Shown here one piece after another: positions 26,973-59,915 of a DNA stretch of 64,000 nucleotides (position 1 is its first letter; each line of letters opens with the position of its first letter). The notes beneath the pieces are model-generated. The model did not search any database and was not told the origin of the DNA. It saw nothing but the letters and a program-made list of their open reading frames with translations. Source of the stretch: a virus; IMG/VR virus record IMGVR_UViG_3300042455_001086, positions 62,001 to 126,000 of that record, one strand, 5' to 3'. The position numbers and the translations under genes were made by a program.

Positions 26973-27467
26973 CTACAACCCCTCATCTTCTTTTTCTGTG
27001 AAGTATTGATTAAACTTTTGCAACATTAAATAAAATTGAAATAACTTATCAATTCTATCAAACTTATTTGACAACCAAGCTTCACCATTTCTATATTCTT
27101 CATTTCTGTCGTCAAAAACAATTGTTCTACCAATACCATCACCAAACAAACGATATAAGGCAAATGCGTTATTTTCCAACCTTCTTTTTAATTCGTCGTT
27201 TCTAATTACTATATAACCCAAAACACCAAGTTTGATGTGATCAATAAACTCTTTATCACAATCTCTTTTTGTTGTACACCACTTTGTTCCAGAACCATAT
27301 TTTTTTGATGCTTCGTGTGTTAATGGAATTGTCAATATAAAATCATCGTCTTTGTATAGCTCAATATATTCATCTTTGGAGACTTTAAATCTCTCATGCA
27401 ATATCGATGAAGAGATGTGATCACTTAAAAGTCTATTATATTGTGATTCTGTAAGAATGATTCGCAT
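26973..27467 (-). CDS. Type A tagged protein with GTKWCT motif
   Basis: 164 residues. MRIILTESQYNRLLSD is a type A tag (LTE at 5-7, LHE at about 23-25). The body contains KKYGSGTKWCTTKRDCD and later FALYRLFGDGIGRTIVFDDRN. I recall the GTKWC motif from other phage proteins of unknown function. The Cys may be catalytic. Confidence 0.65.
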   Translation of the reverse strand: MRIILTESQYNRLLSDHISSSILHERFKVSKDEYIELYKDDDFILTIPLTHEASKKYGSGTKWCTTKRDCDKEFIDHIKLGVLGYIVIRNDELKRRLENNAFALYRLFGDGIGRTIVFDDRNEEYRNGEAWLSNKFDRIDKLFQFYLMLQKFNQYFTEKEDEGL

Positions 27468-30648: not shown

Positions 30649-32073
30649 TTAACCCTTATCAATCTTATCTTGAAGAACTTTCACAAACTCGTTTTGAATC
30701 ATTTTCACAAACTTAATATATGGTGCATCCTCTTTTTCTGGATCATATTTATATTTTCCTCGTGGTGGTCTTGTTGATCTACCAAGGTAATTTAGCGAAC
30801 TTACATTAGAAATGCAAGAATGTCCCCCACTATTAGCTTGTATTAAATCCCACGCATTAATTGTAATTTCATCTAGCATTTTTTTCTCATCTTCATCCAA
30901 ATCACTAAATGGTTTTTCCATAATCTGATATATGCTTCTTATATATTCTTTGTTCCTTTGTGGTGATTTAAAATCATTACCATATGTTGCAACAAAATCT
31001 TTAAAAGTGAAACCAACAGATTCTGAACCAAATTCTTTACCACTTTCTGAAACCCACTTAATTGTTGATAATGGAATTTCTCTTGATTTTAATTGTCCTT
31101 CCCATTTTGATAATACCTCTTGTGCTATTTCACCAAGATTAATACCCTTTAATTCTCTTTCTTTTTTAAATGGATTACAAGAAACCTGAACCAAACCTAA
31201 TGGCCAAGCAATAACAATAAAGTCAGCTTCTGGATTGTTTTTAAATGGTGTATATCTGTCATATGAACCTGGTGCAAATGTGCTACCACCACCATATTGG
31301 ACGATTATTCTATCTTGAATTTTCACATTTGGATGTGATTTCATTTGTTGGATATAATCTTCTCTATTTTTTTGTAGTTGTGGTATTTTAGCATAGTTCT
31401 TCTCAACCATTATCCTTTTAATATTATTTAAAATACTCAACAATGATGGTTGTGATTTCATTACTAATTCTTCCAAGAAACCTGGTTTGTTTTTGAACGC
31501 CAATAATAACTTATTGGTTACCAGTCCCATCATAAACTTATTTCTTCTTGCTGATTGACTTTTATCCAATTTGAATAAATAATTAATAACCTCATCAACT
31601 GAAATATCTTTTGCAATATAATTTGCTGAATCGACCGTAGATATAAGTTCAATATCTTCCGGTGTGAATATTTCTTTTGGTGACACAATTTGTGATATTG
31701 TTTCAACATTTGATCTTGAATGTCTGAATGATGTTGCCGTGTCTTTTTCAACACCGGCTTGTCTGTCGTGATGATCGGTGTGAATTACGAACATCGGCTT
31801 GCCATTAGCGAAGTCAACTAAAACTGGCATAACATCACCATTAGCGTCTAATTTCTTAACCGCAAATTCTTTATCCCCATACTGGATTACTTCTGCATCA
31901 ACTACTTCAATTCCTTTTTGCTCAAGATAATGTTTCATTGCAAGAGCTGTCGTAACTCCGTCAAGTCAAAGGTCCTGGTGAAAGTAGATTTTCGCTTTCT
32001 TGTAGCGCTTTGCGATGTTATTAATATCGCGTAATCCACTTTCAACCAGGACATATCTATTTTTTCTGGTCAT
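30649..32073 (-). CDS. DHH-family phosphoesterase with in-frame UGA (putative translational hop)
   Basis: The ATG at 32073 opens a frame that reaches GAC CTT TGA CTT GAC at codons 34-38. Beyond the TGA the same frame continues for over 430 residues to 30649. Skipping the TGA by moving from the first CTT to the second gives HQDLDGVTTA, the canonical first DHH motif; readthrough instead would insert two residues in it. Residues further on show VIHTDHHDRQ (DHH motif) and, near the C-terminus, NSGGHSCISN, the DHHA1-type glycine/His motif. Family members hydrolyse nucleic acids or cyclic dinucleotides. An ATG at 31938 could give a truncated form lacking motif I. Confidence 0.75.
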
Positions 32074-32480: not shown

Positions 32481-33479
32481 TTAAGCGACACTACTAACTA
32501 AATCAAACTTATCCGAATCACTTACAGCTTTTGATCTATGAAACCCAACAGCACCACCGGCATTTATATCAGCAAAATAAGTTGCGGAATCTTTTTTGTC
32601 TTTAAACTTAGGAAATGAATCACCTGACTTTCCTTTTGTTAAAAACACCACAGCAATTTCAGATGCCACATTTGGGTCATTAACTAAATCTGGATTACCA
32701 ACTAAATCTTTACCAATTAAATTACCATATTTTTCATAATTTCCTCTACCGGTCAATTGGTTGAGACCTCTTCCTCTATATTTCCAACCATCATCACCAC
32801 CTTGATTTCCAGCGGTTTTAGCATATACAACATTAAAGAATTTTTCAGGATCTTTTTTTAAGTTGGTTAATTCACTATCCGAATATTTTGCAACTCTGGA
32901 ACCAAAAATACTTTTAATTCTTGAATTTGATGTTCCGGCATATGATAGTTCTGATTTTGGTTTAAAACCCGATTCTTTTGAGATTACAGATAATATGCCA
33001 ATTTTTGCTAAAGGGTCTTTTATTCCAAATTTATTCATATGGTTAATAATTAAACCGATATTTCTTTTTTGTTCTCCGTCAAAACCACCAACTAATTTAA
33101 TATCACTATTTTTGGGTATTTGACTATCTTCTTGATCCGAACTAATACTATTTTCAAATAAAAACTTTTCTGTCAATTTCTTAATTGTTTCTAAGTCAAA
33201 ATAACCAGATTCTTCTAAATTATTTTCGGATTGGAAGTCTTTAATGGTTGATTGTGTGTTTTCGTCTAAAATCCCGTTTAACTCTATTTGTTTTTGTGTC
33301 ACAATTCTTAAAACAATTTGCATTATTCTAATCTCTTTGTTTGCACTATTTTTTGTAATCTCTTTGTTTTTACTAACCAAATCTTGATAGACCTTTATGA
33401 ATTTTTCAAATAGTTTTTTTCTATCATCATTTTCGTTGATGAGTTTTTTAAACTGGCTTTCAGTAATTACAATTTTCAT
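32481..33479 (-). CDS. Type A tagged GH19 chitinase/lysozyme-like enzyme
   Basis: 332 residues. Tag MKIVITESQFKKLINEN (ITE and INE). Residues 45-120 include a PG_binding_1-like helical part (GILDENTQSTIKDFQSENNL). From about 140 a GH19 domain follows: KESGFKPKSE (catalytic Glu region), then the signature WKYRGRGLNQLTGRGNYEKYG, and NDPNVASEIAVVFL. It degrades peptidoglycan or chitin-like glycans. Like the GH24 gene it carries a head-type tag. Confidence 0.85.
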   Translation of the reverse strand: MKIVITESQFKKLINENDDRKKLFEKFIKVYQDLVSKNKEITKNSANKEIRIMQIVLRIVTQKQIELNGILDENTQSTIKDFQSENNLEESGYFDLETIKKLTEKFLFENSISSDQEDSQIPKNSDIKLVGGFDGEQKRNIGLIINHMNKFGIKDPLAKIGILSVISKESGFKPKSELSYAGTSNSRIKSIFGSRVAKYSDSELTNLKKDPEKFFNVVYAKTAGNQGGDDGWKYRGRGLNQLTGRGNYEKYGNLIGKDLVGNPDLVNDPNVASEIAVVFLTKGKSGDSFPKFKDKKDSATYFADINAGGAVGFHRSKAVSDSDKFDLVSSVA

Positions 33480-33502: not shown

Positions 33503-33697
33503 TCAATCTTTATAATTTTTCCAGAATTTAAACAACTCTTCATCATTATATTCCTCGTTTTTATTATCCCAACCACACATATGACAAAGAAATGGATGAT
33601 TATCTTCCTTATCTTTTTTCCAAGAATGCCCACATTTACAATTTATTTCCTTTGCAAATAATTTATCGGCCTGTTTTTCGGTGATGATTATTTTCAT
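33503..33697 (-). CDS. Type A tagged mini zinc-ribbon protein
   Basis: 64 residues. MKIIITEKQADKLFAKE is a type A tag (ITE; no second triplet). Residues 19-44 contain CKCGHSW and FLCHMCGW, four Cys set as a zinc ribbon, then an acidic tail. A packaged nucleic-acid-binding peptide is likely. It overlaps the neighbouring gene by four bases. Confidence 0.65.
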   Translation of the reverse strand: MKIIITEKQADKLFAKEINCKCGHSWKKDKEDNHPFLCHMCGWDNKNEEYNDEELFKFWKNYKD

Positions 33698-34194
33698 TTC
33701 TTTAATCTATCAATTACTTCTTCTTGAAAGAATGTTTGGATTTCAGCATCACTATTTTCCTTTTCTAAAATATCTTTTAATCTAATATCTTCGTCATTTA
33801 ATACACTATAAAAATCATAGTCTATCAAATAACCTCTTTTGTCTGTTACAATTACACCCAAAAATTCATCACCATTAAATGTGATTTCACCATAGTATTC
33901 TATTTCATCACCCTTATCCATTTCTTCGGAAAATTCAAATCTAAATGGTCTTCCTTTTAAATTATATTTAAATCTCATTCCCTCTCTTTCATCAATATCA
34001 TAAATGTCGTCGTCGTTAAAAATAAAGTCTTCCGGATCACCACCTCTTTCTGTGTGTTTTTTGAATGACTTCAACATATCTTTTTCGAATGGTTTTAATT
34101 CCTCACCCTTCTTCATTTTTGAATACAAATCCAATACTTCGTCAAAATTTTCTGACAACATTTTATATTGACTTTCTGTTATTATTATTTTCAT
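33694..34194 (-). CDS. Type A tagged acidic protein
   Basis: 166 residues: MKIIITESQYKMLSEN with ITE and LSE, a helical region (15-50), then a beta domain with many acids (residues 65-130). No family recognised. Confidence 0.7.
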   Translation of the reverse strand: MKIIITESQYKMLSENFDEVLDLYSKMKKGEELKPFEKDMLKSFKKHTERGGDPEDFIFNDDDIYDIDEREGMRFKYNLKGRPFRFEFSEEMDKGDEIEYYGEITFNGDEFLGVIVTDKRGYLIDYDFYSVLNDEDIRLKDILEKENSDAEIQTFFQEEVIDRLKK

Positions 34195-46390: not shown

Positions 46391-46740
46391 TTTATGTTAT
46401 TTTTTAATTTATTTTTTAACCCTTTGAATACCTCTCTACCTTTTTTCAAAGTTTTTATTTTTGGTTGGATTCTTATTGTTTCTTCAAGATTTTCAGTTTC
46501 AATATCCATCCCTTCTATTATTTCAAGTATATTACCTAAATATTTTTTGTGTATGTCAACCCAAGGATATGGTAGTCCCCAATTTTTATGTCCCCAACAA
46601 GATTGTGTGGTTCCAATTTTATGGTAATTTAACAAGACAACCAATTCCCTAACACCATTATCTATTTTGTTTCCCAAGTTATCAGTAATTAATTTTGATT
46701 TTTCATCAATGTTTTTATACCTAATATCTTGTAATTTCAT
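46387..46740 (-). CDS. Hypothetical protein with SCWGH motif
   Basis: 117 residues. Residues 30-60 read VVLLNYHKIGTTQSCWGHKNWGLPYPWVDI, suggesting a Cys/His-containing site, followed by a basic C-terminal helix. No family recognised. Confidence 0.6.
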   Translation of the reverse strand: MKLQDIRYKNIDEKSKLITDNLGNKIDNGVRELVVLLNYHKIGTTQSCWGHKNWGLPYPWVDIHKKYLGNILEIIEGMDIETENLEETIRIQPKIKTLKKGREVFKGLKNKLKNNIK

Positions 46741-46975
46741 AATTTAATCCCCATCTTTCACTTATCTCAGTGAATTTATCGTTTATTTTTTCTTCTTTAA
46801 TACCATTTAAAGATGAGAAATCATTCTCAAATTGTAAACCGTGTTCCCGGTTTGCATCCATAATTTTTTGTTTAAGAACGGAAAGTTCGTTTGAAGTATA
46901 AAATTCTGTTCCGTGATCAATAATTTTTAGTTCCACAAGAATTTTTTTGTCAAAGGTTTTTATTTGGTGTATCAT
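46721..46975 (-). CDS. Small hypothetical protein
   Basis: 84 residues, beta then helix; overlaps the previous gene by 20 bases and the thymidylate synthase stop by four. Its C-terminal SERWGLNYEITRY resembles the FSQRWGLKIEE part of 48021-48524, so a shared motif exists. Confidence 0.5.
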   Translation of the reverse strand: MIHQIKTFDKKILVELKIIDHGTEFYTSNELSVLKQKIMDANREHGLQFENDFSSLNGIKEEKINDKFTEISERWGLNYEITRY

Positions 46976-47802
46976 ATAGCTAACTCTAATTTTGAATTTA
47001 TTTTAGTTATACCGTCAATTCCGGTAATCTCAAAATCATCAATTGTGTAGTCGTAGAAGTTTTTATTTTCTTTTAAAATTAACTTTGGTTGTATGTCTAA
47101 TGGTTCCTTGTTTAATAGTTCTGAAACACCATCAAAATGCCTATCGTATATATGTAGGTTCTGAACCAAATGACAAAACTTACCAACTTTATAGTCACAA
47201 TGTCCCGCAACCATCATTAAAAGTGCCGTATATTGAATTTTGTTAATATAACCAGCAACTAAATAGTCGTTGCTACGTTGGATAAGTGTCATATCAAGAG
47301 TTAATTCTCCGTTATTTTTTCTTACCGAGAATAGTATTTCGTATGCGCAAGGAAATAAACCTTTTGTTTCAAATAAATCGTGATACTGAAACATATTGAT
47401 GATATGTCTTCTACCAAACGGATCATCAATTAAACCTACTAATAATCTATCAATTAAATTGTATCTTCCGATTGTTGCACCATATCTCTGTCCGATTGTA
47501 TCATCACCAATATTCCATTCTTCCCACCAGTTAATACCCATCTCACGAGCCACTCTCAATGATGAAGTTTGTTTTTGATATATCCATAAAATTTCTTTAA
47601 TACCTGTTTTAATTGCGGTATTTCTTAATGTTGGGATTGGAAACTCTTCTTTTGATATGTCATACTCTTCAAAAACTCCTGTAATAAATTTTGAGTTTGC
47701 CGGTGTTCCATCCTCGTATTTTGGTCTTGGGTTTTCATCCCAAGAACCTTCTTTTATAATTTTTTGGATGTTTTGGATGTAATATTTATCCGCTTTATTC
47801 AT
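46972..47802 (-). CDS. Thymidylate synthase family enzyme (ThyA-like)
   Basis: 276 residues. Conserved parts: IGQRYGATIGR, FGRRHIINMFQYHD, the Cys loop GLFPCAYEILF and the RS loop IQRSNDYLVAGYINKIQYTALL. The enzyme adds a one-carbon unit to a pyrimidine 5'-nucleotide. The usual PPCH has become FPCAY, so the His after the catalytic Cys is lost. The Asn aligned with the base-selecting residue appears kept, favouring dUMP over dCMP. A hydroxymethylase role cannot be excluded. It sits in a run of small overlapping early genes. Confidence 0.85.
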   Translation of the reverse strand: MNKADKYYIQNIQKIIKEGSWDENPRPKYEDGTPANSKFITGVFEEYDISKEEFPIPTLRNTAIKTGIKEILWIYQKQTSSLRVAREMGINWWEEWNIGDDTIGQRYGATIGRYNLIDRLLVGLIDDPFGRRHIINMFQYHDLFETKGLFPCAYEILFSVRKNNGELTLDMTLIQRSNDYLVAGYINKIQYTALLMMVAGHCDYKVGKFCHLVQNLHIYDRHFDGVSELLNKEPLDIQPKLILKENKNFYDYTIDDFEITGIDGITKINSKLELAI

Positions 47803-48028
47803 TTTCTTTTTTAAAATATTCGTTTATCTGTTCTTCGTGTGGTTTATTTAATTCGTCCAAACAATCAGCAATTAACCTTAAACTATATGGCGACCAATAT
47901 CCTTTTTCTTTATTGGCCTGGTAGTAAAAATACCCATTAATATCTTTAATTGCGTGTCCAATATTTTTGTTCCCATAAAATAATTCAAATAACCCTGGTG
48001 TGAGTTCTTCGGTTGTTATTCTATTCAT
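47795..48028 (-). CDS. Small hypothetical protein
   Basis: 77 residues with strand-turn pattern and YYQANKEKGYWSPYS; overlaps both neighbours by eight bases. No family recognised. Confidence 0.55.
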   Translation of the reverse strand: MNRITTEELTPGLFELFYGNKNIGHAIKDINGYFYYQANKEKGYWSPYSLRLIADCLDELNKPHEEQINEYFKKENE

Positions 48029-48524
48029 AACTTTCTATTTTTTTGTCGTTGTATGTTATTGTGATTAGTTTGGTTGGAATATTTTTTTCATCTAAAACTT
48101 TCTTTAATCTATCTGTACCTAAACTCTCCCATTTTACAAATTGAGTATGTTTATCTTTTTCTATTAAATCATATCTCTCTTCCAAATTCAACTCTCGTTC
48201 TTCAATCTTTAATCCCCACCTTTGAGAGAACTCAATATCAGTTTTACATTTTTTGATAAATTCATCTTTTGTTAATTTAATTTTATCCCCCATTATCCAG
48301 TAATAACCCATATAAGCCTCATTCAATAAGTCTGGTTCGTCTTTACCATAATGTTCCAATTGATTTTCGTTGAAGATGTGTAATAATCCGTATTCGTCCA
48401 TTTCACCAATCACTCGGACTTCACCAGCAATTGTTTCAAATACACCAACAATTGTACAAGGAAATTTATAACCTTTTGGTTTGTGAGCCTTGTCCCCCAC
48501 TTTAAATTTTGTTTCTTTATTCAT
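48021..48524 (-). CDS. Hypothetical protein with SH3-like start
   Basis: 167 residues. Residues 5-45 (FKVGDKAHKPKGYKFPCTIVGVFE) look like a small beta barrel; the second half is helical with KTDIEFSQRWGLKIEE. No family recognised. Confidence 0.55.
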   Translation of the reverse strand: MNKETKFKVGDKAHKPKGYKFPCTIVGVFETIAGEVRVIGEMDEYGLLHIFNENQLEHYGKDEPDLLNEAYMGYYWIMGDKIKLTKDEFIKKCKTDIEFSQRWGLKIEERELNLEERYDLIEKDKHTQFVKWESLGTDRLKKVLDEKNIPTKLITITYNDKKIESYE

Positions 48525-48536
48525 ATTTATTTTATT

Positions 48537-48764
48537 TTATTTATATATTGATGATCTTGAATTAAGTCTCTGACTCAATAAAGTTTCCTTGAAGCACTTA
48601 ACAAATTCCTCTTTTATATCTTCAACAACTATTCCATCACCCCACACCATTACGTCTTTCTTAACCCTATCTTTCCAATGATAGTTTGTTGGGTAGTTGT
48701 ATAAAAGGAAGTTCTCCATTTCCTCCATAGTAAAGGAAAGTTCTATTTTAATTTGTTCACTCAT
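48537..48764 (-). CDS. Small hypothetical protein
   Basis: 75 residues, MSEQIKIELSFTMEEMENFLLYNYP and an amphipathic C-terminal half. Overlaps the next gene by eight bases. Confidence 0.55.
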   Translation of the reverse strand: MSEQIKIELSFTMEEMENFLLYNYPTNYHWKDRVKKDVMVWGDGIVVEDIKEEFVKCFKETLLSQRLNSRSSIYK

Positions 48765-49203
48765 AATCTTTATAATAGTATTTATCTAACAATTCTCTAC
48801 ATTTTTTTGTGACATATTCCAAGGTCCAATTTTGTTTAAAACCATCTCTGAATCCTTCTTCACCTTTTGACATCCATTCGATTGCAAATGCAAAGTTTTC
48901 AAAATCTTTTTCCATCTGGCTTAAGTAAGAATTGGCTTCAAGTAATTCTGTAATATCATAACCATTCTTATGTAACCATAAAACCACTTTGGAATTATCA
49001 AAATGTAATATGCAATTGTCCTGACCATTGTGAAACTCAATACCTATAATTGACCGACCATCAAATGTTATTTGTTGTTTGCCATCTTCAGTGATTACCG
49101 GTTCAAATGATAATTTTTTAAACCAATAATATTTCTCATTTGGATAGACAAATTTTAAAATATCTTTTGCTTCGTCTTCTGTTAGTTCTTTAATGTTTTT
49201 CAT
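48757..49203 (-). CDS. Hypothetical protein
   Basis: 148 residues of alpha/beta type (IIGIEFHNGQDNCILHF, KVVLWLHKNGYDI) with an acidic C-terminal helix. Similar small proteins occur in flavobacterial phages as I recall; no function. Confidence 0.6.
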   Translation of the reverse strand: MKNIKELTEDEAKDILKFVYPNEKYYWFKKLSFEPVITEDGKQQITFDGRSIIGIEFHNGQDNCILHFDNSKVVLWLHKNGYDITELLEANSYLSQMEKDFENFAFAIEWMSKGEEGFRDGFKQNWTLEYVTKKCRELLDKYYYKDYE

Positions 49204-49206
49204 TTC

Positions 49207-49425
49207 TTACCAACTTATTTCCCAATAACCGTCTCTTTGAACATCATACCACCGAACTTTATATCCCAATCTTTCAAGATGAACTCTTGTTGGGTGTGAT
49301 AGTATGTCTTTATAAATTGAGAACTTACCTACTGTTGCCGCTTCCTTAATTTCTTCAATTGTATCCACAATCTCTGGAGTTATTTTAATTTCTTCTGCGA
49401 GCTTTCTTGCTTCTTGTGCGTTCAT
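49207..49425 (-). CDS. Small protein, DNA-mimic or helper type
   Basis: 72 residues from the ATG at 49425, MNAQEARKLAEEIKITPEI, chosen because an upstream extension would run into the neighbouring gene. The C-terminus is VRWYDVQRDGYWEISW, typical of small phage alpha/beta proteins. No family recognised. Confidence 0.55.
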   Translation of the reverse strand: MNAQEARKLAEEIKITPEIVDTIEEIKEAATVGKFSIYKDILSHPTRVHLERLGYKVRWYDVQRDGYWEISW

Positions 49426-49435
49426 ATCTATTTTA

Positions 49436-49678
49436 TTAAAATTCGTGTTTTCCTGGTTTAATTTTTCCATCCAAAATATCTTTCATAACTTTTGGTTGGT
49501 AATCTTCAAGTAATTGTTTTTGTGTTACTTCCCACCCAATTGGTGGTAATGTATAATCTTCAAAATATGTATACCTGATCATTCCTTGAATGTTTTCACC
49601 ACACTCTTTAACTTCTCCGGTTTCGTGGATTGTTGCCTCAAATTTACCTTCTCCAATATGTTTAATTGTGTAACCCAT
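49436..49678 (-). CDS. Small hypothetical protein
   Basis: 80 residues with alternating beta strands (YTIKHIGEGKFEATIHETGEV) and a helix. The next gene starts two bases from its start. No family recognised. Confidence 0.55.
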   Translation of the reverse strand: MGYTIKHIGEGKFEATIHETGEVKECGENIQGMIRYTYFEDYTLPPIGWEVTQKQLLEDYQPKVMKDILDGKIKPGKHEF

Positions 49679-49680
49679 CT

Positions 49681-49983
49681 TTATTTTCTTTTAAATAATA
49701 TATCAATAATTCTATTAATTGTCCAATCTCTTTTCTTTTCTTTGATGGTTTTTGGTTTCTCTTTGAATGGATTGTGATAGAGATTCGTCTCGGTGTCGTA
49801 GAAATACATAAATGAGCGTAAAAAAACTTGGTGTTGACTTTCTGGAATATTTGTGAAATCGGCAATTATCTTAACAGGTAATTCAGATTTATGCCCAGCA
49901 AGTGTTATACCAGTATTAATTTCAACAATTGGTTTAACATTTATCGTTAAACTATTTTTGGTGTCTAATGTTATATTACTCAT
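49681..49983 (-). CDS. Small hypothetical protein
   Basis: 100 residues: MSNITLDTKNSLTINVKPIV starts a beta domain, and the end is strongly basic (KEKPKTIKEKKRD ... LFKRK). May bind nucleic acid. Start overlaps the neighbouring stop. Confidence 0.55.
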   Translation of the reverse strand: MSNITLDTKNSLTINVKPIVEINTGITLAGHKSELPVKIIADFTNIPESQHQVFLRSFMYFYDTETNLYHNPFKEKPKTIKEKKRDWTINRIIDILFKRK

Positions 49984-50204
49984 CTTGATATTACTTTACA
50001 ATTATTTACATCTATGTCGTGTGATTTTCCATCAACCTTAACTCTGTAATACATTCCATATAAATTCTGCCATTCTTTAACAACTTCAAATTGTTCTCCG
50101 GTTTTAAATCTTTTTTCAACAAGCCCTGGTCTATAATAATTCAATAGTTCGTGACGATAGTGTTCGCACAAACAATCTTTTTTAACTTCTATTACCATCT
50201 TCAT
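49980..50204 (-). CDS. Small SH3-like protein
   Basis: 74 residues with FKTGEQFEVVKEWQNLYGMYYRVKVDG, a beta-barrel-like pattern, plus two Cys near the N-terminus. No family recognised. Confidence 0.55.
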   Translation of the reverse strand: MKMVIEVKKDCLCEHYRHELLNYYRPGLVEKRFKTGEQFEVVKEWQNLYGMYYRVKVDGKSHDIDVNNCKVISR

Positions 50205-50219
50205 CTTTGTTTTGTTTTA

Positions 50220-50399
50220 CTATTTAATACCAATTCCCTCTCCGTCAATGTATATTAACTTTACCGTTTCACCATCACCTATAATTGTTAAAGTGGGATA
50301 TTCATCATCTGGAACAGGATAGGTGGGTTTTATTTCATAACGATATTCATAACAAATTTTATCCACTTTATCAAGAAACTCTTTCATTTTATTTGTCAT
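50220..50399 (-). CDS. Small acidic protein
   Basis: 59 residues with a clean frame: a helix (MKEFLDKVDKICYEYRYE) and strands (PTLTIIGDG, TVKLIYIDGEGI). Its start overlaps the stop of 50396-50482. Confidence 0.6.
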   Translation of the reverse strand: MTNKMKEFLDKVDKICYEYRYEIKPTYPVPDDEYPTLTIIGDGETVKLIYIDGEGIGIK

Positions 50400-50482
50400 C
50401 TCTTAAATTTTGATTTAATTTTCATCCAAACTATTTCGGGAAAGTTCCATAACCACCAAAAAAATACATAAAATTTTTTCAT
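50396..50482 (-). CDS. 28-residue membrane-active-like peptide
   Basis: MKKFYVFFWWLWNFPEIVW followed by a Lys-rich tail. The aromatic-rich segment could insert in a membrane. ATGA overlap with the next gene supports coding. Confidence 0.45.
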   Translation of the reverse strand: MKKFYVFFWWLWNFPEIVWMKIKSKFKR

Positions 50483-50494
50483 CAATCAATCATT

Positions 50495-50722
50495 TTATAT
50501 GAAATATTTTGAGTGTATCTCTTGTCTTTTATTTGATAACCGATATTCAAGTGGTGATATGATTGTGGCGTAATTCAATGCCCCTAATTTTCGATCTAAT
50601 TGATTGTAAAAATTTCTAATCAACCTCTTTGCAACAAATGTTTGTTCTCGTGTTTCACAAGAATCAATTACCTTTTCAATCCATTTTGCTACGTCTCCGT
50701 AATGTGTGCTTCTATTTTCCAT
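50495..50722 (-). CDS. SCET-family small protein, copy 1
   Basis: 75 residues: RSTHYGDVAKWIEKVIDSCE, then QTFVAKRLIRNF and a C-terminal LEYRLSNKRQ. The same architecture recurs at 60106-60333 and 60641-60880. TATATTTG ends four bases before the ATG. No function known. Confidence 0.65.
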   Translation of the reverse strand: MENRSTHYGDVAKWIEKVIDSCETREQTFVAKRLIRNFYNQLDRKLGALNYATIISPLEYRLSNKRQEIHSKYFI

Positions 50723-50726
50723 AATA

Positions 50727-50734
50727 CAAATATA
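50727..50734 (-). promoter_or_regulatory. TATATTTG promoter
   Basis: Ends 4 bases before 50722. Confidence 0.7.
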
Positions 50735-50745
50735 AAAAAAATTGA

Positions 50746-51003
50746 TTAATTCTCCAAATAAAAATCTTTTCCAGATTTCATTACATATTGAACTGTAACA
50801 CCATCGTTTGTTATTAATTCAATAAACATTGGTTTTCCGGTGTATAAACATAACTCAAATGAATGTGCCGTTGGTTTCATTGACATTATAAGTAATCTCT
50901 CCGGTCCAAGTATTTTAATTGAGGATCCATCAAGTGACAGTTCTTCATTTATGTCAATTTTAACACAATTATCACAAATGGATTCGGCATTTAAATTTTT
51001 CAT
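50746..51003 (-). CDS. Small hypothetical protein
   Basis: 85 residues of beta character (SIKILGPERLLIMSMKPTAH, MFIELITNDGVTVQYVM) with two Cys near the N-terminus. ATGA overlap with the neighbour. Confidence 0.55.
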   Translation of the reverse strand: MKNLNAESICDNCVKIDINEELSLDGSSIKILGPERLLIMSMKPTAHSFELCLYTGKPMFIELITNDGVTVQYVMKSGKDFYLEN

Positions 51004-51377
51004 ATATTTTCTTTTTGTTCTACAATCTCAATTAAATTAGTTAGACAATCAAGTTCGGCTTCTTCGTAAGTATAAAATAATTTAGTTGTTGTTGGGTAAT
51101 ACTCTGATCCAATTTCAGATTTAATACTTACCACACCTCGTCTTAAACTTCCACCAAAAGATTCATCTACCCATCCACTTAAACCATGTTTCTCTCTAAA
51201 CCATCTAAATGCTGACTGCCAAGTTGGTGCTGAAATACTTTCAAAATCTCTTTCATCCGAGTTGTAAGTAATACCAAAATTCCATTTACCATCAGCGAAA
51301 TATGACATACATCGTTCATCATAACCCAATGCTTTCATTCTTAAAGCCAAAGGATATATTACAAATTCTTTTTCCAT
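51000..51377 (-). CDS. Hypothetical protein
   Basis: 125 residues with WNFGITYNSDERD and WVDESFGGSLRRGV; Trp/Gly-rich. TATATTTG ends four bases before the ATG. No family recognised. Confidence 0.6.
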   Translation of the reverse strand: MEKEFVIYPLALRMKALGYDERCMSYFADGKWNFGITYNSDERDFESISAPTWQSAFRWFREKHGLSGWVDESFGGSLRRGVVSIKSEIGSEYYPTTTKLFYTYEEAELDCLTNLIEIVEQKENI

Positions 51378-51381
51378 AATA

Positions 51382-51389
51382 CAAATATA
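51382..51389 (-). promoter_or_regulatory. TATATTTG promoter
   Basis: Ends 4 bases before 51377. Confidence 0.7.
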
Positions 51390-51395
51390 ATAAAA

Positions 51396-52133
51396 TTATT
51401 GTTCCATAGTTGGTTTCAACCACATTAATTTGTTTTCAAAGATATATCTTTTTAATGTTGGGTATTGATCTAATATATCCAGAGTTCTCATCGTGTCGTG
51501 TTTAAAACATTTATATAGTTCTTCCCGGATTCTTTCAGCCGATACAACACTCATTTTACTTTCGTAATCGTAGTTATTAATGTAGTAATCAAGATGTCTT
51601 AAACTAAATCCTTTTGTAATTGAAAACCTAATTGCTCTAATAATTCTTAATGGATCGTCGTCAAAAGTTTCTTTTGTATGTAATGGTGTTTTTAATACCA
51701 TATTTTTTAGATCCTCCATTCCACCAAATAGGTCAATGATGTTTCCATCTATATCTATGGCCATTGCGTTGACCGTGAAATCTCTTCTTGTTAAATCATC
51801 TTCCAATGTTCCAGGTAAAACAATTGGTGTTCTTGTTCCCATTATATAACCAGTTTCCTTTCTTGCCATAACAAAGTCCGCAACTAATCCACTATGAATG
51901 TGGTCTTTTGGAAATTTTGCCCTAATTGTAAAACAATCCGGTGTTACCAAAAAGATTTCAAATCCTTCTTCTTTAAGGAACCCTTCAAGAATATTAAACA
52001 TTGTGTGTGGTGATCCAATATCTTTTAATAGGTCTTCACTTGGTACCACGGTGTAATCAACATCTTTTGATGTCAAACCGAGTATTTCATCTCTGACTTT
52101 GCCACCAACCTCGTAAAATTTAAATAAACTCAT
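51396..52133 (-). CDS. CCA-adding enzyme / poly(A) polymerase family nucleotidyltransferase
   Basis: 245 residues. N-terminal VGGKVRDEILG (GG motif), SKDVDYTVV (catalytic Asp pair), RRDFTVNAMA, and DPLRIIRAIRF are the class II tRNA nucleotidyltransferase/poly(A) polymerase signatures. The usual long C-terminal body and tail are missing, so this is a head-plus-neck version. It may repair phage or host tRNA 3' ends or act on RNA. No tRNA gene is in the window. Confidence 0.9.
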   Translation of the reverse strand: MSLFKFYEVGGKVRDEILGLTSKDVDYTVVPSEDLLKDIGSPHTMFNILEGFLKEEGFEIFLVTPDCFTIRAKFPKDHIHSGLVADFVMARKETGYIMGTRTPIVLPGTLEDDLTRRDFTVNAMAIDIDGNIIDLFGGMEDLKNMVLKTPLHTKETFDDDPLRIIRAIRFSITKGFSLRHLDYYINNYDYESKMSVVSAERIREELYKCFKHDTMRTLDILDQYPTLKRYIFENKLMWLKPTMEQ

Positions 52134-52134
52134 A

Positions 52135-52665
52135 TTAAATTTTTTTAAGTATCAAACAACCATCTGAATCTAATTTTGGTTGTTCTTTTGGTTTGTCTTC
52201 AGTATACGATGTTGAAAATCCACCTAATGATTGGTCATAGAAACAGGGTTCCATTTTAATTTCAACATCAATTTCTATTTGTTGTTGGATAGATGAGACA
52301 GCCATATCCATTCTGTCTAACTCTGAAATAGTTTTTCTGTCATAATTTGCAAAATTAAATATAGCTTGTTTAACATCTTCCAAAGTAAACACCTTGTCTT
52401 TATTCAGTTCGATTGCTTTGCTGAATCCGTTTTTAAATCCATATTCAGTATCATCTTGTGCTGTTGGATATATTGAATGGTATTTAGCAAAATCATAAGC
52501 CAACTTATCCAAGTCATAACCATTCTTAATGTCGATACAATTTTTAACCGATAATTTATTTGTAATAGCCATTAGAGGACCACCTTCTGTATCTGCAAAT
52601 AACTTACCATCAACTGTAAGCCAATACGTATCCGAATTTAGTGATTTATATAATTTTCCTTTCAT
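52135..52665 (-). CDS. MKGKL-family protein, copy 1
   Basis: 176 residues. MKGKLYKSLNSDTYWL, a beta opening, then LDKLAYDFAKYH, FKNGFSKAIELNKDKVFTLED, and DSDGCLILKKI at the end. Two paralogs follow at 52975-53454 and 60877-61344. The family is common in flavobacterial phages as I recall, function unknown. Confidence 0.65.
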   Translation of the reverse strand: MKGKLYKSLNSDTYWLTVDGKLFADTEGGPLMAITNKLSVKNCIDIKNGYDLDKLAYDFAKYHSIYPTAQDDTEYGFKNGFSKAIELNKDKVFTLEDVKQAIFNFANYDRKTISELDRMDMAVSSIQQQIEIDVEIKMEPCFYDQSLGGFSTSYTEDKPKEQPKLDSDGCLILKKI

Positions 52666-52676
52666 ATCAAATCTTT

Positions 52677-52973
52677 TTAAAGTTGTTTTTTAAAAATTGT
52701 AAACATAATCCCAATACCAATTAACATTCTATCAACAATCATTTGAGTATGACATCCATAGAATGGAATATAAAATTCATTAGGTAATTTCCAAAATATG
52801 AAAGACCCAATTAATAGTAATATATTAAAGAATCCAAATACAATAAAGAGTGGTGCTAAAATGCTTAAAATAGTTTTTCCAAACCATAACCAAGTTTCTT
52901 TATCTGTTTCTTTTAAAGACATAAAAGCTCTTACGGGAGATAAATACAAAACAATATTTAGAAACGTTTTCAT
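52677..52973 (-). CDS. Membrane protein
   Basis: 98 residues with hydrophobic segments at about 31-58 and 80-92, the first long enough for one or two spans. It lies between two MKGKL-family genes with ATG near their stops. No family recognised. Confidence 0.6.
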   Translation of the reverse strand: MKTFLNIVLYLSPVRAFMSLKETDKETWLWFGKTILSILAPLFIVFGFFNILLLIGSFIFWKLPNEFYIPFYGCHTQMIVDRMLIGIGIMFTIFKKQL

Positions 52974-52974
52974 A

Positions 52975-53454
52975 TCATATCTTTTTAAGTATTAAACATC
53001 CATTTGGGTCTAAAAACGGAAATGATGTTTCTTCTTTTGGAAAAATTCTTGTAGAATCTAAGCCATCCCAAATATCATCCATCTCAATCTCAACTTCAAT
53101 TTCTGTTGGTTGTAGTATTGGTTGAGTAAATTCCGCAAAAGTACCTTTATTGTATACACAAAAATCCCAAAGATTTCCCATATCCTCCAAAGTAAAAACC
53201 TTGTCTTTATTCAACTCTATTGCTTTTTTGAAACCCTCTTTAAAACCAATATGACCGTAATGTTCATTATAATCACCATTAACATTAGCATACTCATCAG
53301 CCAACTTCTCAACATAAACTACTCCAAATATCTCATCGCAGTTTTGTTTGGATAGTTTTTTACCTTCAGTCACACCATTTGTAATTGCTACTACTTCTCC
53401 ATTTGTGTCTTTAAGTAAATAATCATTCCCTGTTTTAATTAATTTTCCTTTCAT
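52975..53454 (-). CDS. MKGKL-family protein, copy 2
   Basis: 159 residues. MKGKLIKTGNDYLLKD, LADEYANVNGDYN, FKEGFKKAIELNKDKVFTLED and DPNGCLILKKI align with copy 1. TATCTTTG ends four bases before the ATG, marking the start of the unit 52.1-53.4 kb. Confidence 0.65.
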   Translation of the reverse strand: MKGKLIKTGNDYLLKDTNGEVVAITNGVTEGKKLSKQNCDEIFGVVYVEKLADEYANVNGDYNEHYGHIGFKEGFKKAIELNKDKVFTLEDMGNLWDFCVYNKGTFAEFTQPILQPTEIEVEIEMDDIWDGLDSTRIFPKEETSFPFLDPNGCLILKKI

Positions 53455-53458
53455 AGTT

Positions 53459-53466
53459 CAAAGATA
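53459..53466 (-). promoter_or_regulatory. TATCTTTG promoter
   Basis: Ends 4 bases before 53454. Confidence 0.65.
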
Positions 53467-53488
53467 CAAAACTTTTTTTAAAAAACAA

Positions 53489-53512
53489 AATCCCACCTAT
53501 AAAGATGGGATT
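53489..53512 (-). terminator. Terminator-like hairpin
   Basis: Stem AATCCCA(CC)T / A(GA)TGGGATT followed in leftward sense by T-rich sequence, after 53541-54563. Confidence 0.65.
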
Positions 53513-53540
53513 AAATATTTTGAAACCTTGTTGTTTTTTA

Positions 53541-54563
53541 TTAGTCAATAACGATTGCTCTTAACGAGTCAGATGTTAATGAATCTGATTTTATGTAAAT
53601 TAATTTATTTTCGTGTCTCTTTAAGAAATTATCCAAAGTATCATTATAGGTTGACATAAGATATTGTTTACCATTAATCATTATATTAGCATCCATCGTA
53701 TAATGAATTTCAGTTTTGGTTCTAACCATTTGATGACCACATTCAGGACAAAATTTCCAAGATGATTTTTTAATCTTTGTTGAACACTTTGGACATCTAT
53801 CAATCAAATCTTTCTTCTCAAATGGTTTTTGAGATTCTGGTAATATCTTCCAAGTTGATGTTGATACGGTCCAAGAATTGAAATTTTTACTTACGGTTTT
53901 AAATGTTTGATTACTTGAAGATCCCATCTCAACTCTTCCTGTTTCAACTGATTTAGATTTTTTTGCAAAACTTCTTGGTTTTTGGTCGTATTTTCTTTCA
54001 AACTTATTTGATCGTGCGTTGTTACTGAAACTTAATTTACCACTATTATTACTAGTAATATCCACATTTGACGAGTAATTAACATTTGAAGTGTATAAAT
54101 TGTTTCCAATTACATCATTAGTTGATGTAAGATGAGTAACACCAAAACCAGCGGTTCCGGTATTAAAGTAAGTTGGATTCCAATTTAAATTATTGTTTAA
54201 TCTTCCAATAATTATATCTTCTTCCTCATAAAACAAAACTTCAACATCTCCGTTGTTTGCAATTGCGTTTTTTGTTTCATTTGAACCATCAACGGTATAA
54301 GTTTCAAACTTAAATTTGTTTGGAACATCAAGGTATCTTTCAAGAAATACTCTTTCACCTGGACGTAAAACAATTCCACCTCCGTTAATAAATTCTCCGT
54401 TTATTGAGATTTTTGATAGAACGGTTTTTTTAGATCCATTATAGAGTTCAATTTCAAATTCTGAACCGTCTTTTAGATAAACATTCTGACCGAATTGTTT
54501 AATCCTTTGTTTGTTTTTTGTGATATAAGCACACGGCTTATCACTGATTTGATTGTAATACAT
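53541..54563 (-). CDS. Structural-type protein with zinc ribbon
   Basis: 340 residues. Residues 20-90 are a beta domain (FEIELYNGSKKTVLSKISING, GGGIVLRPGERVFLERYL). Residues 120-240 are Ser/Asn/Thr-rich low complexity. Residues 248-275 contain CPKCSTKI and FCPECGHQ, a four-Cys zinc ribbon. The C-terminus is alpha/beta. It resembles secreted-type or virion beta proteins with a linker. No family recognised. Confidence 0.6.
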   Translation of the reverse strand: MYYNQISDKPCAYITKNKQRIKQFGQNVYLKDGSEFEIELYNGSKKTVLSKISINGEFINGGGIVLRPGERVFLERYLDVPNKFKFETYTVDGSNETKNAIANNGDVEVLFYEEEDIIIGRLNNNLNWNPTYFNTGTAGFGVTHLTSTNDVIGNNLYTSNVNYSSNVDITSNNSGKLSFSNNARSNKFERKYDQKPRSFAKKSKSVETGRVEMGSSSNQTFKTVSKNFNSWTVSTSTWKILPESQKPFEKKDLIDRCPKCSTKIKKSSWKFCPECGHQMVRTKTEIHYTMDANIMINGKQYLMSTYNDTLDNFLKRHENKLIYIKSDSLTSDSLRAIVID

Positions 54564-54716
54564 TTTTCCTTATTTTATTTGTTTATTTTATTGGATGCCG
54601 ATTTGTTGGTTTTACCCAACTCAAATGTTTCAAGAACACTCGGAATCCAGTAACAAGGTTTCAGGAATAAATATATTATGATTTTGTTTTTTGTAAATAA
54701 AAAGATGGGTTTTAAT
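54564..54716. other. Gene-free interval
   Basis: About 150 bases with a GTTTT/AAAC-rich upstream segment; no promoter box or gene seen. Confidence 0.4.
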
Positions 54717-55085
54717 TTATCTTGCAATTTCCTTTGCTTGTCGTCTTAATTCTTTTGCTTCAGCTTCGAGTTCTCTGGCTCTACCAAGTAATGAATTTAT
54801 TTCTTCGGCGGTTTCCGGTGTCATATACTCAATGTAATCTGCACTATGACGATTGTGCATTCCTGTTAAATATTTTTTCTTTGGGACTTTATCTATTTTA
54901 ACATATTTCCCATCTTTCATCAAATACATAAACTTACCTTGTACTTTATTTCTTAAAATATCGGCAGACCAAGTTCCGGTATCATCAATATCCGATTTTT
55001 TAATGATGTTAAATTTATGATCTTCAACAACACGATTAACAATTCTTGTCAAATCAGATTCGGTAAGTTTTATGATTTTTTTCAT
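54717..55085 (-). CDS. Type C tagged protein
   Basis: 122 residues. MKKIIKLTESDLTRIVNRVVED is a type C tag (LTE) but the second triplet is replaced by VED. The body includes KGKFMYLMKDGKYVKIDKV and a heptad-rich charged helix at the end. With its neighbour it is one of few tagged genes in the right half. Confidence 0.7.
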   Translation of the reverse strand: MKKIIKLTESDLTRIVNRVVEDHKFNIIKKSDIDDTGTWSADILRNKVQGKFMYLMKDGKYVKIDKVPKKKYLTGMHNRHSADYIEYMTPETAEEINSLLGRARELEAEAKELRRQAKEIAR

Positions 55086-55094
55086 AACAATAGA

Positions 55095-55466
55095 TTATTT
55101 AATTATTTTTTGTTCCAGAACACCAATCAATTGTTTTGTATATAAATCAATGACATTTTGATATTCAGAAATCAACTTATTTACATTTTCGGTTAGTTTT
55201 ACTAATTTGGAATGTTCGTCATCAGATAAAAAATAAAATGTTGTTTTCGGTAGATCATCTTTTATATTTTTTACCTTAACTATTTTATAATCACCCTTTT
55301 TATTTAAATCTAAATAATATGGTTTATAGCCTTCTGATATGAGTTTTTGATTCCAAGTGTTTGATATTTGTGATCCATATACAATTCTATCACTTTTGGA
55401 TTCTTTTATTATCTTACCAACAATTCTTGTTAAATCCGATTCAGTAAGTTTTATGATTTTTTTCAT
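55095..55466 (-). CDS. Type C tagged protein
   Basis: 123 residues from the ATG at 55466 (TATTTAT four bases upstream). MKKIIKLTESDLTRIVGKIIKES is a close copy of the neighbouring tag; the mature parts share KxxYxxVKxVKxD-like spacing, so the two may be distant paralogs. No family recognised. Confidence 0.7.
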   Translation of the reverse strand: MKKIIKLTESDLTRIVGKIIKESKSDRIVYGSQISNTWNQKLISEGYKPYYLDLNKKGDYKIVKVKNIKDDLPKTTFYFLSDDEHSKLVKLTENVNKLISEYQNVIDLYTKQLIGVLEQKIIK

Positions 55467-55470
55467 AATA

Positions 55471-55477
55471 ATAAATA
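55471..55477 (-). promoter_or_regulatory. TATTTAT element
   Basis: 4 bases upstream of the tagged gene at 55466. Confidence 0.6.
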
Positions 55478-55849
55478 TCACATTCTTTCAAAATAGAAAA
55501 CAACAGGAATATTTGTCTCCTGGATTAAACCAAAATCTTTTGCCATTCGGTAATTATTATTGTGATTGTTTAATCTTTCTATTTGAAGTCCGATTTCTTT
55601 TCTAAACATCTCAAGATTGAATGTTGATTTCCACCGGTTACATCTCGCACAGCTTGGCATTAAATTTTCAAAATCATCGGTTCCCCTTTCAACACCCCAA
55701 ACTTCAAGGGTTGTTACTTTATCATTCCGGTATAATGGTTTGATGTGGTCCACTTGCATTTGTTTTATGGTAATTTCCTTACCACAATAACCACAATGTC
55801 CATCACATTTATTATAAACTTCTTGTCTGTTTATTTTGGTTTTGGACAT
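55478..55849 (-). CDS. HNH endonuclease
   Basis: 123 residues. CDGHCGYCGKEI, MQVDHIKPLYRND, then NLMPSCARCNRWKSTF give two CxxC pairs and the HNH metal site. It is probably a free-standing homing-type or phage nuclease; no intron or target site was seen nearby. It overlaps no gene and has no tag. Confidence 0.85.
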   Translation of the reverse strand: MSKTKINRQEVYNKCDGHCGYCGKEITIKQMQVDHIKPLYRNDKVTTLEVWGVERGTDDFENLMPSCARCNRWKSTFNLEMFRKEIGLQIERLNNHNNNYRMAKDFGLIQETNIPVVFYFERM

Positions 55850-55859
55850 TAATTTAATT

Positions 55860-56522
55860 TTACAAATGCGACATTAAAATATCAAGATAATAATCAATAA
55901 TTTCTGGATGAACATCTTTTACTTCACGATTAATTAAAATACTACCACTAAATTTTTCTTCAGATAGTAGCTCGTGAGTTTCTTTAAAGTGTTCACCAAG
56001 GGCATTATTATAAACTCTCACTCTTTTTGTGTTTTCAATATCTTCGTCTGTACCAGTTTTCTTATCTGGTGCCCCAAAATAAGCAAACGAGGCATTTGGT
56101 CGTTCGGATAGTATCCTTTCAATTTCATCAATCATTATTGACAAAATCTTTAATGTAATTTTTTCATTAGTCCTAAAAGAATACTTATCACTATGGGTAG
56201 CACCGATTGACGCTAATTTACTTTGTTTTGAATAAAATTCTGGTTGTAGTTTTGGATAAAATGAAATGATAAAGAAATCATATTTGTATTCTTCTATTTC
56301 AACTATATATTTAAAACCAGAAAAAGTTTTAGGTTTTCCATCAATGATTTCGGTTCTTTCTGGTGTAACAAACGTAAAAATTTTACCACCAATGAAATTA
56401 CTACCATCATCTTTTATTGGTAAGTTTTGGGAATATCTCCAATTATAATCACTTTTTAATTTTTCGGCTCGTTCTTTTGAAAAAACAATTTCTTTAAGTA
56501 TTTTTCTAATCGTTTTTTTCAT
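55860..56522 (-). CDS. Type D-like tagged protein
   Basis: 220 residues. MKKTIRKILKEIVFSKE is the tag (LKE). The body is alpha/beta with a Tyr/Phe-rich core (YDFFIISFYPKLQPEF), SFAYFGAPDKKTG and a final acidic helix. No family recognised. The start overlaps the stop of 56519-56698. Confidence 0.65.
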   Translation of the reverse strand: MKKTIRKILKEIVFSKERAEKLKSDYNWRYSQNLPIKDDGSNFIGGKIFTFVTPERTEIIDGKPKTFSGFKYIVEIEEYKYDFFIISFYPKLQPEFYSKQSKLASIGATHSDKYSFRTNEKITLKILSIMIDEIERILSERPNASFAYFGAPDKKTGTDEDIENTKRVRVYNNALGEHFKETHELLSEEKFSGSILINREVKDVHPEIIDYYLDILMSHL

Positions 56523-56698
56523 TTTTTAGTTTTCTTAAACCTTTCATCATATTCTTTTGTACCATATGTTGCCATATTCCAAGTGGTATAAAAATATGGA
56601 TTTTTAATTGGACAATTACCAGATTCTTTTAAATCTTTACGGAATTTTTCTGATTGTTCCTTTGTATAATTAAAATCAAATATTTTTTTAGTTTCCAT
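56519..56698 (-). CDS. Small protein with Cys
   Basis: 59 residues: METKKIFDFNYTKEQSEKF, CPIKNPYFYTTWNMATYG and a Lys-rich end. TATATTTG lies 20 bases upstream and the stop overlaps the next start. Probably a real early gene, function unknown. Confidence 0.6.
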   Translation of the reverse strand: METKKIFDFNYTKEQSEKFRKDLKESGNCPIKNPYFYTTWNMATYGTKEYDERFKKTKK

Positions 56699-56718
56699 TT
56701 TGTCCGTTTTTTATAGTA

Positions 56719-56726
56719 CAAATATA
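56719..56726 (-). promoter_or_regulatory. TATATTTG promoter
   Basis: 20 bases upstream of 56698. Confidence 0.6.
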
Positions 56727-56764
56727 ACATAAATATTTTAATTAACAAAAAATTCAACTATTTT

Positions 56765-57031
56765 TCACTGAAACTTCTGTTGAAACTCATCATTACTTTC
56801 CCAAACATTAACAAACTCCTCCAATGTAAATTCTCTTAATTTATATTCATTTGGGTCGTCGACCAAATAATCATAATCTGGTTCTTCAAAAGTTTTAACA
56901 AACTCAAGATACTTCTCGTAAGATTTTACAAGTTCCTCCACAAATATTACATTATCTGGAATTTCAATTACCACTGGTTCTGGAAAGAACATATTCAATC
57001 CAATTCCTAAATTCACTTCAATTTTTTTCAT
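56765..57031 (-). CDS. Small acidic protein
   Basis: 88 residues, highly acidic (EPVVIEIPDNVIFVEEL ... PDYDYLVDDPNEY). Overlaps the secreted-protein gene by 14 bases. May be a DNA mimic or inhibitor; no family. Confidence 0.55.
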   Translation of the reverse strand: MKKIEVNLGIGLNMFFPEPVVIEIPDNVIFVEELVKSYEKYLEFVKTFEEPDYDYLVDDPNEYKLREFTLEEFVNVWESNDEFQQKFQ

Positions 57032-57428
57032 TATTCTTACTTTTTCTATAATACAAATCTGTTATAACACCATTTTGGTCAATCACTTCAAAAAAATATT
57101 TATCGTCATTACCATCAATTTCTCCAAACATTATTTTGTATTTGTTATTTTCTCTTAAAAATATACTAACTATGATGTTGTCACTATTTGGGTCATTACT
57201 AAAAAAACCAAAATCTATTGGATTTTTTGTTATGTCATAAACAACCTCATTTGTATCTGAACCATTTTTATCCAGAACATAATTATATTTATATATTGCC
57301 TTTATTGGATCTTTGAAACTCATTTCATATAGTCCGTATTCATTTTTTTTGAGGTCATTAACATAATCTAATTGTGAAAAACTAATTGTCCCACAAAAAA
57401 GTATTAAACTTAAAATTAATTTTTTCAT
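57018..57428 (-). CDS. Secreted protein with signal peptide
   Basis: 136 residues: signal peptide of about 18 residues (MKKLILSLILFCGTISFSQ), then beta-rich acidic mature part. The signal ends FSQ, similar to that of the two secreted proteins at 12.8 and 14.4 kb, but the DNA is not duplicated. No family recognised. Confidence 0.6.
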   Translation of the reverse strand: MKKLILSLILFCGTISFSQLDYVNDLKKNEYGLYEMSFKDPIKAIYKYNYVLDKNGSDTNEVVYDITKNPIDFGFFSNDPNSDNIIVSIFLRENNKYKIMFGEIDGNDDKYFFEVIDQNGVITDLYYRKSKNNEKN

Positions 57429-57429
57429 A

Positions 57430-57546
57430 TTATTGTTTGTTATTATATTTTTTTCTTAAATAATCAGCCCAATCGGCCTGTTTTCTTCCGTTTATGAAGA
57501 ACCAACCCCAGTTTAGTTCAAACCATTTGTTTAGTTTTTTTAACAT
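57430..57546 (-). CDS. 38-residue Trp-rich peptide
   Basis: MLKKLNKWFELNWGWFFIN followed by KQADWADYLRKKY. The frame abuts both neighbours, and the amphipathic, Trp-rich pattern suggests membrane contact. Confidence 0.5.
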   Translation of the reverse strand: MLKKLNKWFELNWGWFFINGRKQADWADYLRKKYNNKQ

Positions 57547-57547
57547 A

Positions 57548-57691
57548 TTATTTTATTTTTAAGTTGTATGGATCTGGATCCAGATAATCAGAAATAACCA
57601 TCATTACAAATCCTGGTATTGCAACGATGAGTGCCGGAACTGCAAGAACTATTGAAATAACTCTTGTTGTGTAATAAAGTATTTTTTTCAT
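57548..57691 (-). CDS. Small membrane protein
   Basis: 47 residues with one long hydrophobic span (RVISIVLAVPALIVAIPGFV) and an acidic tail. ATGA overlap with the DUF1653-like gene. Probable inner-membrane early protein. Confidence 0.6.
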   Translation of the reverse strand: MKKILYYTTRVISIVLAVPALIVAIPGFVMMVISDYLDPDPYNLKIK

Positions 57692-57924
57692 ATCTTTTGG
57701 AATCTATTAATTGATATTTCTCCAGCCCCAAATTTTTTATTTTCGGCAACCTCAAGCCACTCGTTTAATGGTCTGGCGTAGATAGTTCCAAACGATAGTG
57801 ATTTGTAAATAACCAAAGGTTCTTTCGTGTCTGTGTGATTTGCCAAACAAATCACTTCATATTTACCACCTTTATAATGTTGATACTTTTCTCCCGGTAA
57901 AGGGTAATTTATAAACTCTGCCAT
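57688..57924 (-). CDS. DUF1653-like protein
   Basis: 78 residues with PGEKYQHYKGGKYEVICLANHTDT and PLVIYKSL ... ARPLNEWLE, matching the DUF1653 pattern (KYxHYKGxxYxV, VVYxxL, RPxxxF). Family function is not known. No tag. Confidence 0.75.
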   Translation of the reverse strand: MAEFINYPLPGEKYQHYKGGKYEVICLANHTDTKEPLVIYKSLSFGTIYARPLNEWLEVAENKKFGAGEISINRFQKI

Positions 57925-57925
57925 A

Positions 57926-58366: not shown

Positions 58367-58405
58367 ATTACAAAAAATAATAAACTTTTTAATATATTTC
58401 AATGA

Positions 58406-59674: not shown

Positions 59675-59678
59675 ACTT

Positions 59679-59902: not shown

Positions 59903-59915
59903 TATTTTATTTTTA

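Follow-up and report, generated by a model that had tools for sequence, protein, structure and literature searches.

To our knowledge, gene 60 of phage T4 was long the one well-studied case of translational bypass in bacteria or phages. At the +1 frameshift site of prfB (RF2), CUU UGA C, the ribosome pauses at the stop codon with Leu-tRNA in the P site, and the byp blocks of Magnusiomyces capitatus mitochondria are longer than the gaps described below. In the model for T4 gene 60, re-pairing of a 5′ stem-loop pulls the mRNA (PMC5009743), and the elements listed for this gene are the 5′SL, the take-off SL, the 3′SL and the nascent peptide (PMC11194080). Bypassing of the Magnusiomyces capitatus Byps is apparently independent of mRNA context (PMC5009743). 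Synthetic stop-hops have been described in E. coli (Weiss et al. 1987, as recounted in PMC5009743), and natural ones were thought possible, with none known in 2016 (PMC5009743); we found no earlier natural stop-hop in the literature searched, which left out most subscription-journal papers and bioRxiv preprints. Comparison of viral sequences now leads us to propose, with high confidence, that a phage DHH gene is expressed by programmed translational bypass, that is, by a natural 'stop-hop'.

The gene lies in a 64-kb stretch of DNA, called the window here, that forms part of a 257-kb virus record. On the minus strand (32073 to 30649), it runs ATG ... CAC CAG GAC CTT TGA CTT GAC GGA ...; 35 codons precede the TGA, and a 438-codon open frame follows in the same frame. 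The minus-strand sequence thus confirms the preliminary description of this DNA as carrying two same-frame parts with a single TGA between identical CTT codons. The parts of the gene are as follows.

30649 to 32073, minus strand: gene of a DHH-family phosphoesterase, in two coding parts that the proposed hop would join (DHH motifs; Pfam PF01368 on an uninterrupted homologue)
31972 to 32073, minus strand: first stretch, from the ATG to the base before the take-off codon
31969 to 31971, minus strand: take-off codon CTT (Leu); CTN in 28 of 28 distinct sequences
31966 to 31968, minus strand: coding gap, equal to the stop codon TGA; a stop in 28 of 28 distinct sequences
31963 to 31965, minus strand: landing codon CTT (Leu); CTN in 28 of 28 distinct sequences
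30652 to 31962, minus strand: second coding part, restarting at GAC GGA (the DG of motif I); purifying selection in the family

The motifs H-x-D-x-D-G, D, DHH and GGH are invariant in 25 homologues. Pfam PF01368 (DHH) matched the uninterrupted homologue L002 with an E value of 1.8e-4, under the gathering score, and scores for this model ranged from 22.2 to 25.1 bits compared to a gathering score of 28.1. Judged by these scores, the protein is a divergent member or relative of the DHH phosphoesterases. The second coding part comprises 517-764 codons in L097, L106, L144, L093 and L127 rather than the usual 436-456, and these longer second parts are possibly C-terminal fusions.

Homologue comparison, which had been suggested as a check, revealed an interruption at the same site in at least 45 contigs including the window, representing at least 28 distinct sequences; these contig totals are lower bounds from pattern scans of viral collections. 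Because at least 44 other viral contigs, from other metagenomes, share the interruption, it is no assembly error. Among the best 80 homologues in viral contigs, HxDLDG was unbroken in 77, and the same place was occupied by CTT TAG CTT in L001 and L003 and by CTT TAA CTT in L023. When the pattern was scanned with an open middle codon (NNN), this codon was always a stop within the gene family among the matches listed, so the interruption is no product of chance; a scan of genome contigs for the pattern returned only chance matches outside the DHH family. The stop, which directly follows the take-off codon in all 28 distinct sequences, is TGA in 21, TAG in 5 and TAA in 2. Take-off and landing codons are likewise CTN throughout (28/28), being identical CTT/CTT in 16 and both CTN in the other 12.

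In addition to the gaps of 3 nt, a scan with open gap length yielded gaps of 5, 6 and 8 nt. The 5-nt gaps read CTT-TGACG-CTA or CTG, the 6-nt gaps CTC-TGAGGG-CTT and CTC-TAAGGG-CTT, and the 8-nt gaps CTT-TGAGGGAA-CTT and CTT-TGACGGGT-CTT; gaps of 5 and 8 nt leave the downstream part out of frame relative to the upstream part. A hop from CTN to CTN gives HQDL-DGV in each of the 28 distinct interrupted genes. On every contig of sufficient length, the landing frame gave a full-length second part, and pairs within each gap class exhibited low pN and high pS (e.g. 0.04 vs 0.60 for the two 5-nt members). Purifying selection on the codons past the gap, read in the landing frame, is strong, with low pN/pS in both parts of the gene.

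The region upstream of the take-off codon differs between interrupted and uninterrupted genes. Near-invariant codons in interrupted genes (GTC CTG .. GAA AGT GGA and ATC TAC TTT CAY CAG GAY) form two zones that are mutually complementary and are absent from uninterrupted genes. In the window, the corresponding RNA features are the following.

32035 to 32052, minus strand: 5′ arm of the outer RNA helix (GUCCUGGU-U-GAAAGUGGA), from RNAalifold on 28 sequences, pair counts and codon conservation
32012 to 32030, minus strand: inner hairpin 1 of the three-way junction, from individual folds
31993 to 32007, minus strand: inner hairpin 2 of the three-way junction, from individual folds
31972 to 31988, minus strand: 3′ arm of the outer RNA helix (UCUACUUUCACCAGGAC), abutting the take-off codon, from RNAalifold and pair counts

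RNAalifold predicted a 16-bp helix of -19.65 kcal/mol for the 28 interrupted sequences and no pair for 40 uninterrupted sequences. In its 17-bp version, the outer helix reaches right up to the take-off codon, and 99.3% of its pair cells are formed in interrupted genes compared to 60.5% in uninterrupted genes. Compensatory changes were evident at one pair (13 G-C and 11 A-U) and at another (20 G-C, 3 A-U and 1 G-U), and the covariation score of the helix was reached by none of 500 shuffles. One further pair is G-U in every sequence, which points to RNA rather than DNA. All 28 interrupted genes beat all 200 of their synonymous shuffles (mean z -8.4), while the mean z of 61 uninterrupted controls was +0.08. 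The loop region formed hairpins in nearly all members in individual folds, with sequences that differ between lineages. Based on these folds, a three-way junction RNA is predicted within the 85 nt before take-off and is absent from the uninterrupted homologues. Synonymous divergence was 0.34 in the stem codons and 0.68 downstream, compared to 0.71 and 0.65 in controls, although some of the upstream codon conservation may reflect recent spread of a cassette rather than constraint. The higher local GC content pointed out in the preliminary description is real and is accounted for by the conserved RNA helix flanking the site. No other convincing copy of this RNA element was found elsewhere in the 257-kb phage record.

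The L105 lineage (L105, L096, L117 and L130; also L128, which is partial) has kept CTT-TGA-CTT, but the 5′ arm of its helix is mostly gone, and ~85 codons downstream its frame meets a second stop (AGG TAA AAT). It is probably a decaying copy and a natural negative control; with its broken helix and second stop, it implies that not every copy need be functional.

Decoding of the stop by a tRNA would keep the window copy in frame after the stop, likewise all members with gaps of 3 and 6 nt. Such readthrough would place two or more extra residues inside motif I, a drawback that was recognised from the outset and that we find to amount to 2-3 residues across gap classes, within an HxDxDG that is invariant in homologues. 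All three stops occur at the site, the CTN codons on both sides would be left without a reason, and, because gaps of 5 and 8 nt shift the frame of the rest of the gene, readthrough fails as a general explanation; we consider it highly improbable. CTT TGA C is also the core of the prfB shift site, which would favour an ordinary -1 or +1 frameshift of the ribosome at CTT TGA, as in prfB. However, a +1 shift in the window leads to a stop no more than about a dozen codons on, members with 3- and 6-nt gaps require no change of frame, and a -1 shift in those with 5- and 8-nt gaps adds residues to motif I, leaving this explanation with minimal credibility. Reassignment of the stop was also rejected, all three stops having been found at the site.

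A disabled gene, or a split gene whose second part is made from an internal start such as the ATG at 31938, is very unlikely. Many members do have an in-frame ATG 8 codons past the landing codon, and the L105 lineage does carry its second nonsense stop, but the same Met codon is present in uninterrupted genes too, it is missing from L001, L003, L116, L152 and L155, and a product begun there would be without motif I. Inactivation would also leave unexplained the low pN/pS in both parts, the kept stop, the CTN pair and the helix; the disabling 6-base insertion considered in the preliminary description is untenable given purifying selection downstream in the landing frame and retention of the stop and stem. 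Removal of the gap before translation, whether by RNA excision or editing or by DNA rearrangement, would yield an identical final protein without any hop. We know of no case in bacteria or phages in which 6-11 nt are removed before translation. Such removal would render the stop codons and the CTN matching superfluous, while the helix and stop resemble elements of T4 gene 60 (PMC5009743), and we give it next to no probability. The CTT-to-CTT hop restoring HQDLDG, as originally put forward, is supported by the family, being the sole reading that gives an invariant motif I in 28 of 28 sequences, including those with 5- and 8-nt gaps.

Directly upstream of 13 of the 28 distinct interrupted genes lies an HNH-like ORF of ~300 aa with conserved Cys pairs, which preceded none of 61 uninterrupted genes, bar distant relatives before L046, L073 and L077. 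In a scan with this ORF, all 21 complete copies among the matches listed were directly upstream of an interrupted gene. Twelve HNH-like ORF sequences share an invariant HxDH...N...N..K and the Cys pairs; the ORF had no Pfam match, no PDB match and a weak PHROG endonuclease VII match. Based on its invariant residues, position and insertion pattern, we infer that it encodes a putative HNH-like endonuclease. Helix formation was kept in interrupted genes without an upstream HNH-like ORF, so the helix is not merely a binding site of the HNH-like protein.

L216, which is interrupted and has the ORF, and L218, which has neither, are 93% identical on both sides. In this pair, insertion of the ORF took place at the resident gene's start, where a nine-codon relic is left, and the two sequences are homologous again from the landing codon on; the insert includes the rewritten 5′ part together with the take-off codon and the stop. 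Further present/absent pairs are L023 vs L025 and L001 vs L004, and in L023 the HNH-like ORF uses the start codon of the resident gene. L001, L023 and L083 are chimeras in which the 5′ part is of the interrupted type and the 3′ part of the uninterrupted type. The ORF, together with the rewritten gene start, take-off codon and stop, thus entered as one cassette, in the arrangement of a homing cassette; the bypass element most likely originated and spread as its protective end. The window copy retains the bypass without the HNH-like ORF and probably lost the endonuclease gene later. After correction for the tree, the association of ORF and bypass was one-way, about 3 to 0, with too few independent pairs for significance. 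The conserved stop, the CTN pair, the helix, selection on both parts and the cassette boundaries all emerge from comparison of sequences.

Distant relatives of the HNH-like ORF were also observed upstream of the uninterrupted DHH genes of L046, L047, L073 and L077, whose sequence around motif I has been rewritten (HMDLDGVVS, SHQDLDGIVS), maybe as another escape from cutting. A scan with the distant relative in L073 matched its own two contigs alone. ORFs resembling DNA methyltransferases, or other endonuclease-like ORFs, often lie nearby upstream of interrupted genes without the HNH-like ORF (L093, L097, L102, L114, L115, L126, L127 and L132).

In the mechanism that we infer for the programmed hop, including its efficiency and the pulling itself, the ribosome would translate the first 35 codons, unwinding the three-way-junction RNA, and would pause with peptidyl-tRNA-Leu on CTN in the P site and the stop codon in the A site. 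Since the 3′ arm ends directly before the take-off codon, the helix could not close with the ribosome at take-off. Once codon-anticodon pairing gave way, the helix would re-close behind the ribosome, pulling the mRNA backwards and advancing the ribosome by 6 to 11 nt, whereupon the tRNA would re-pair with the next CTN and decoding would restart at GAY GG to give an intact DHH active-site motif. By a crude estimate, the move from take-off to landing yields a mean gain in structure energy of -5.9 to -8.6 kcal/mol (15- and 12-nt exit boundaries), compared to -0.4 to -1.8 kcal/mol in controls, and, as crudely estimated at the 12-nt boundary, this gain grows with hop length. Shortly ahead of the site there is a basic stretch (KKAK/PKAK), and interrupted proteins have a longer charged N-terminus. 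We consider it likely that these genes represent the first natural stop-hops, spanning a whole phage clade, with the upstream three-way-junction RNA alone as driver, free in their hop length (6, 8, 9 or 11 nt), and having arisen at the junction of an invading homing cassette, which brought a replacement for the start of the gene, with the resident gene that it invaded.

Several features of the phage surroundings were also observed. Just beyond the window, L187 (G000 46500-61500) carries a cluster of about 20 tRNA genes. One of them, a tRNA-Leu(UAG), would read CTN codons and has a variable arm of unusual shortness; another is an odd tRNA-like gene whose anticodon was called with 4 nt. The same tRNA cluster of the window's own phage contains, at L187:2510-2968, a divergent relative of the HNH-like ORF. 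A tRNA-Leu(AAG) called by ARAGORN was set aside as a candidate for a special hopping tRNA, its anticodon arm being ambiguous and maybe UAA. A Shine-Dalgarno role is unlikely, since of 32 window genes sampled only 2 are preceded by an SD-like motif. Of the 117 window ORFs, 17 (e.g. 26973-27467, 32481-33479 and 33694-34194) start with a short tag such as MKIIITESQ or MNLQESIRRILREE, compared to 1.5% at internal positions, and the DHH protein is also tagged (VLVESG). In T4, (I/L)xE sequences are processing sites of phage head proteins, and by analogy the (I/L)xE-like N-terminal tag may mark proteins packaged in the virion.

The 28 natural variants in stops, gap lengths and landing codons, together with the uninterrupted controls, make the roles of the stop, the tRNA, the helix and the gap length testable. 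If the proposed bypass is true, the link between homing endonucleases and ribosome bypass would be a recurring theme, beyond a T4 oddity. Since automatic annotation renders a gene of this kind as two products, one a short peptide and the other a truncated enzyme, other cases may be hidden.

Compared to prfB, the window site shares CTT followed by TGA C, but the DHH gene restarts on a non-overlapping codon, its upstream signal is a helix, and no RF2 gene is involved here. The synthetic stop-hops of E. coli were artificial, whereas the phage case is natural, conserved and equipped with a large upstream RNA structure. The Byps of Magnusiomyces capitatus likewise involve translational skipping of inserted, possibly mobile blocks, although by mitochondrial ribosomes, unlike the phage DHH gene. 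The closest likeness noted in the preliminary description, that to T4 gene 60, can be extended by the long upstream stem and the HNH-like gene in relatives. The refolding of an upstream helix behind the ribosome would match the 5′ stem-loop model of gene 60, and the free-standing HNH-like gene directly upstream in relatives parallels the arrangement of gene 60 and mobA (PMC2988022, PMC3014915). In contrast, the gap is 50 nt in gene 60 and 3-8 nt here, too short for the take-off stem that the gene 60 gap contains; gene 60 uses Gly GGA, whereas the DHH genes use Leu CTN with a landing codon that need not be identical; and the nascent-peptide signal (KKYK) needed in gene 60 has no evident counterpart, unless the basic KKAK/PKAK stretch acts as one. 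The DHH enzyme gene differs further in its upstream three-way junction, its occurrence in many phage lineages, and its varied gaps and stops. Given a gap without a stem, the proposed bypass of the DHH gene is a variant of bypassing and no strict copy of gene 60.
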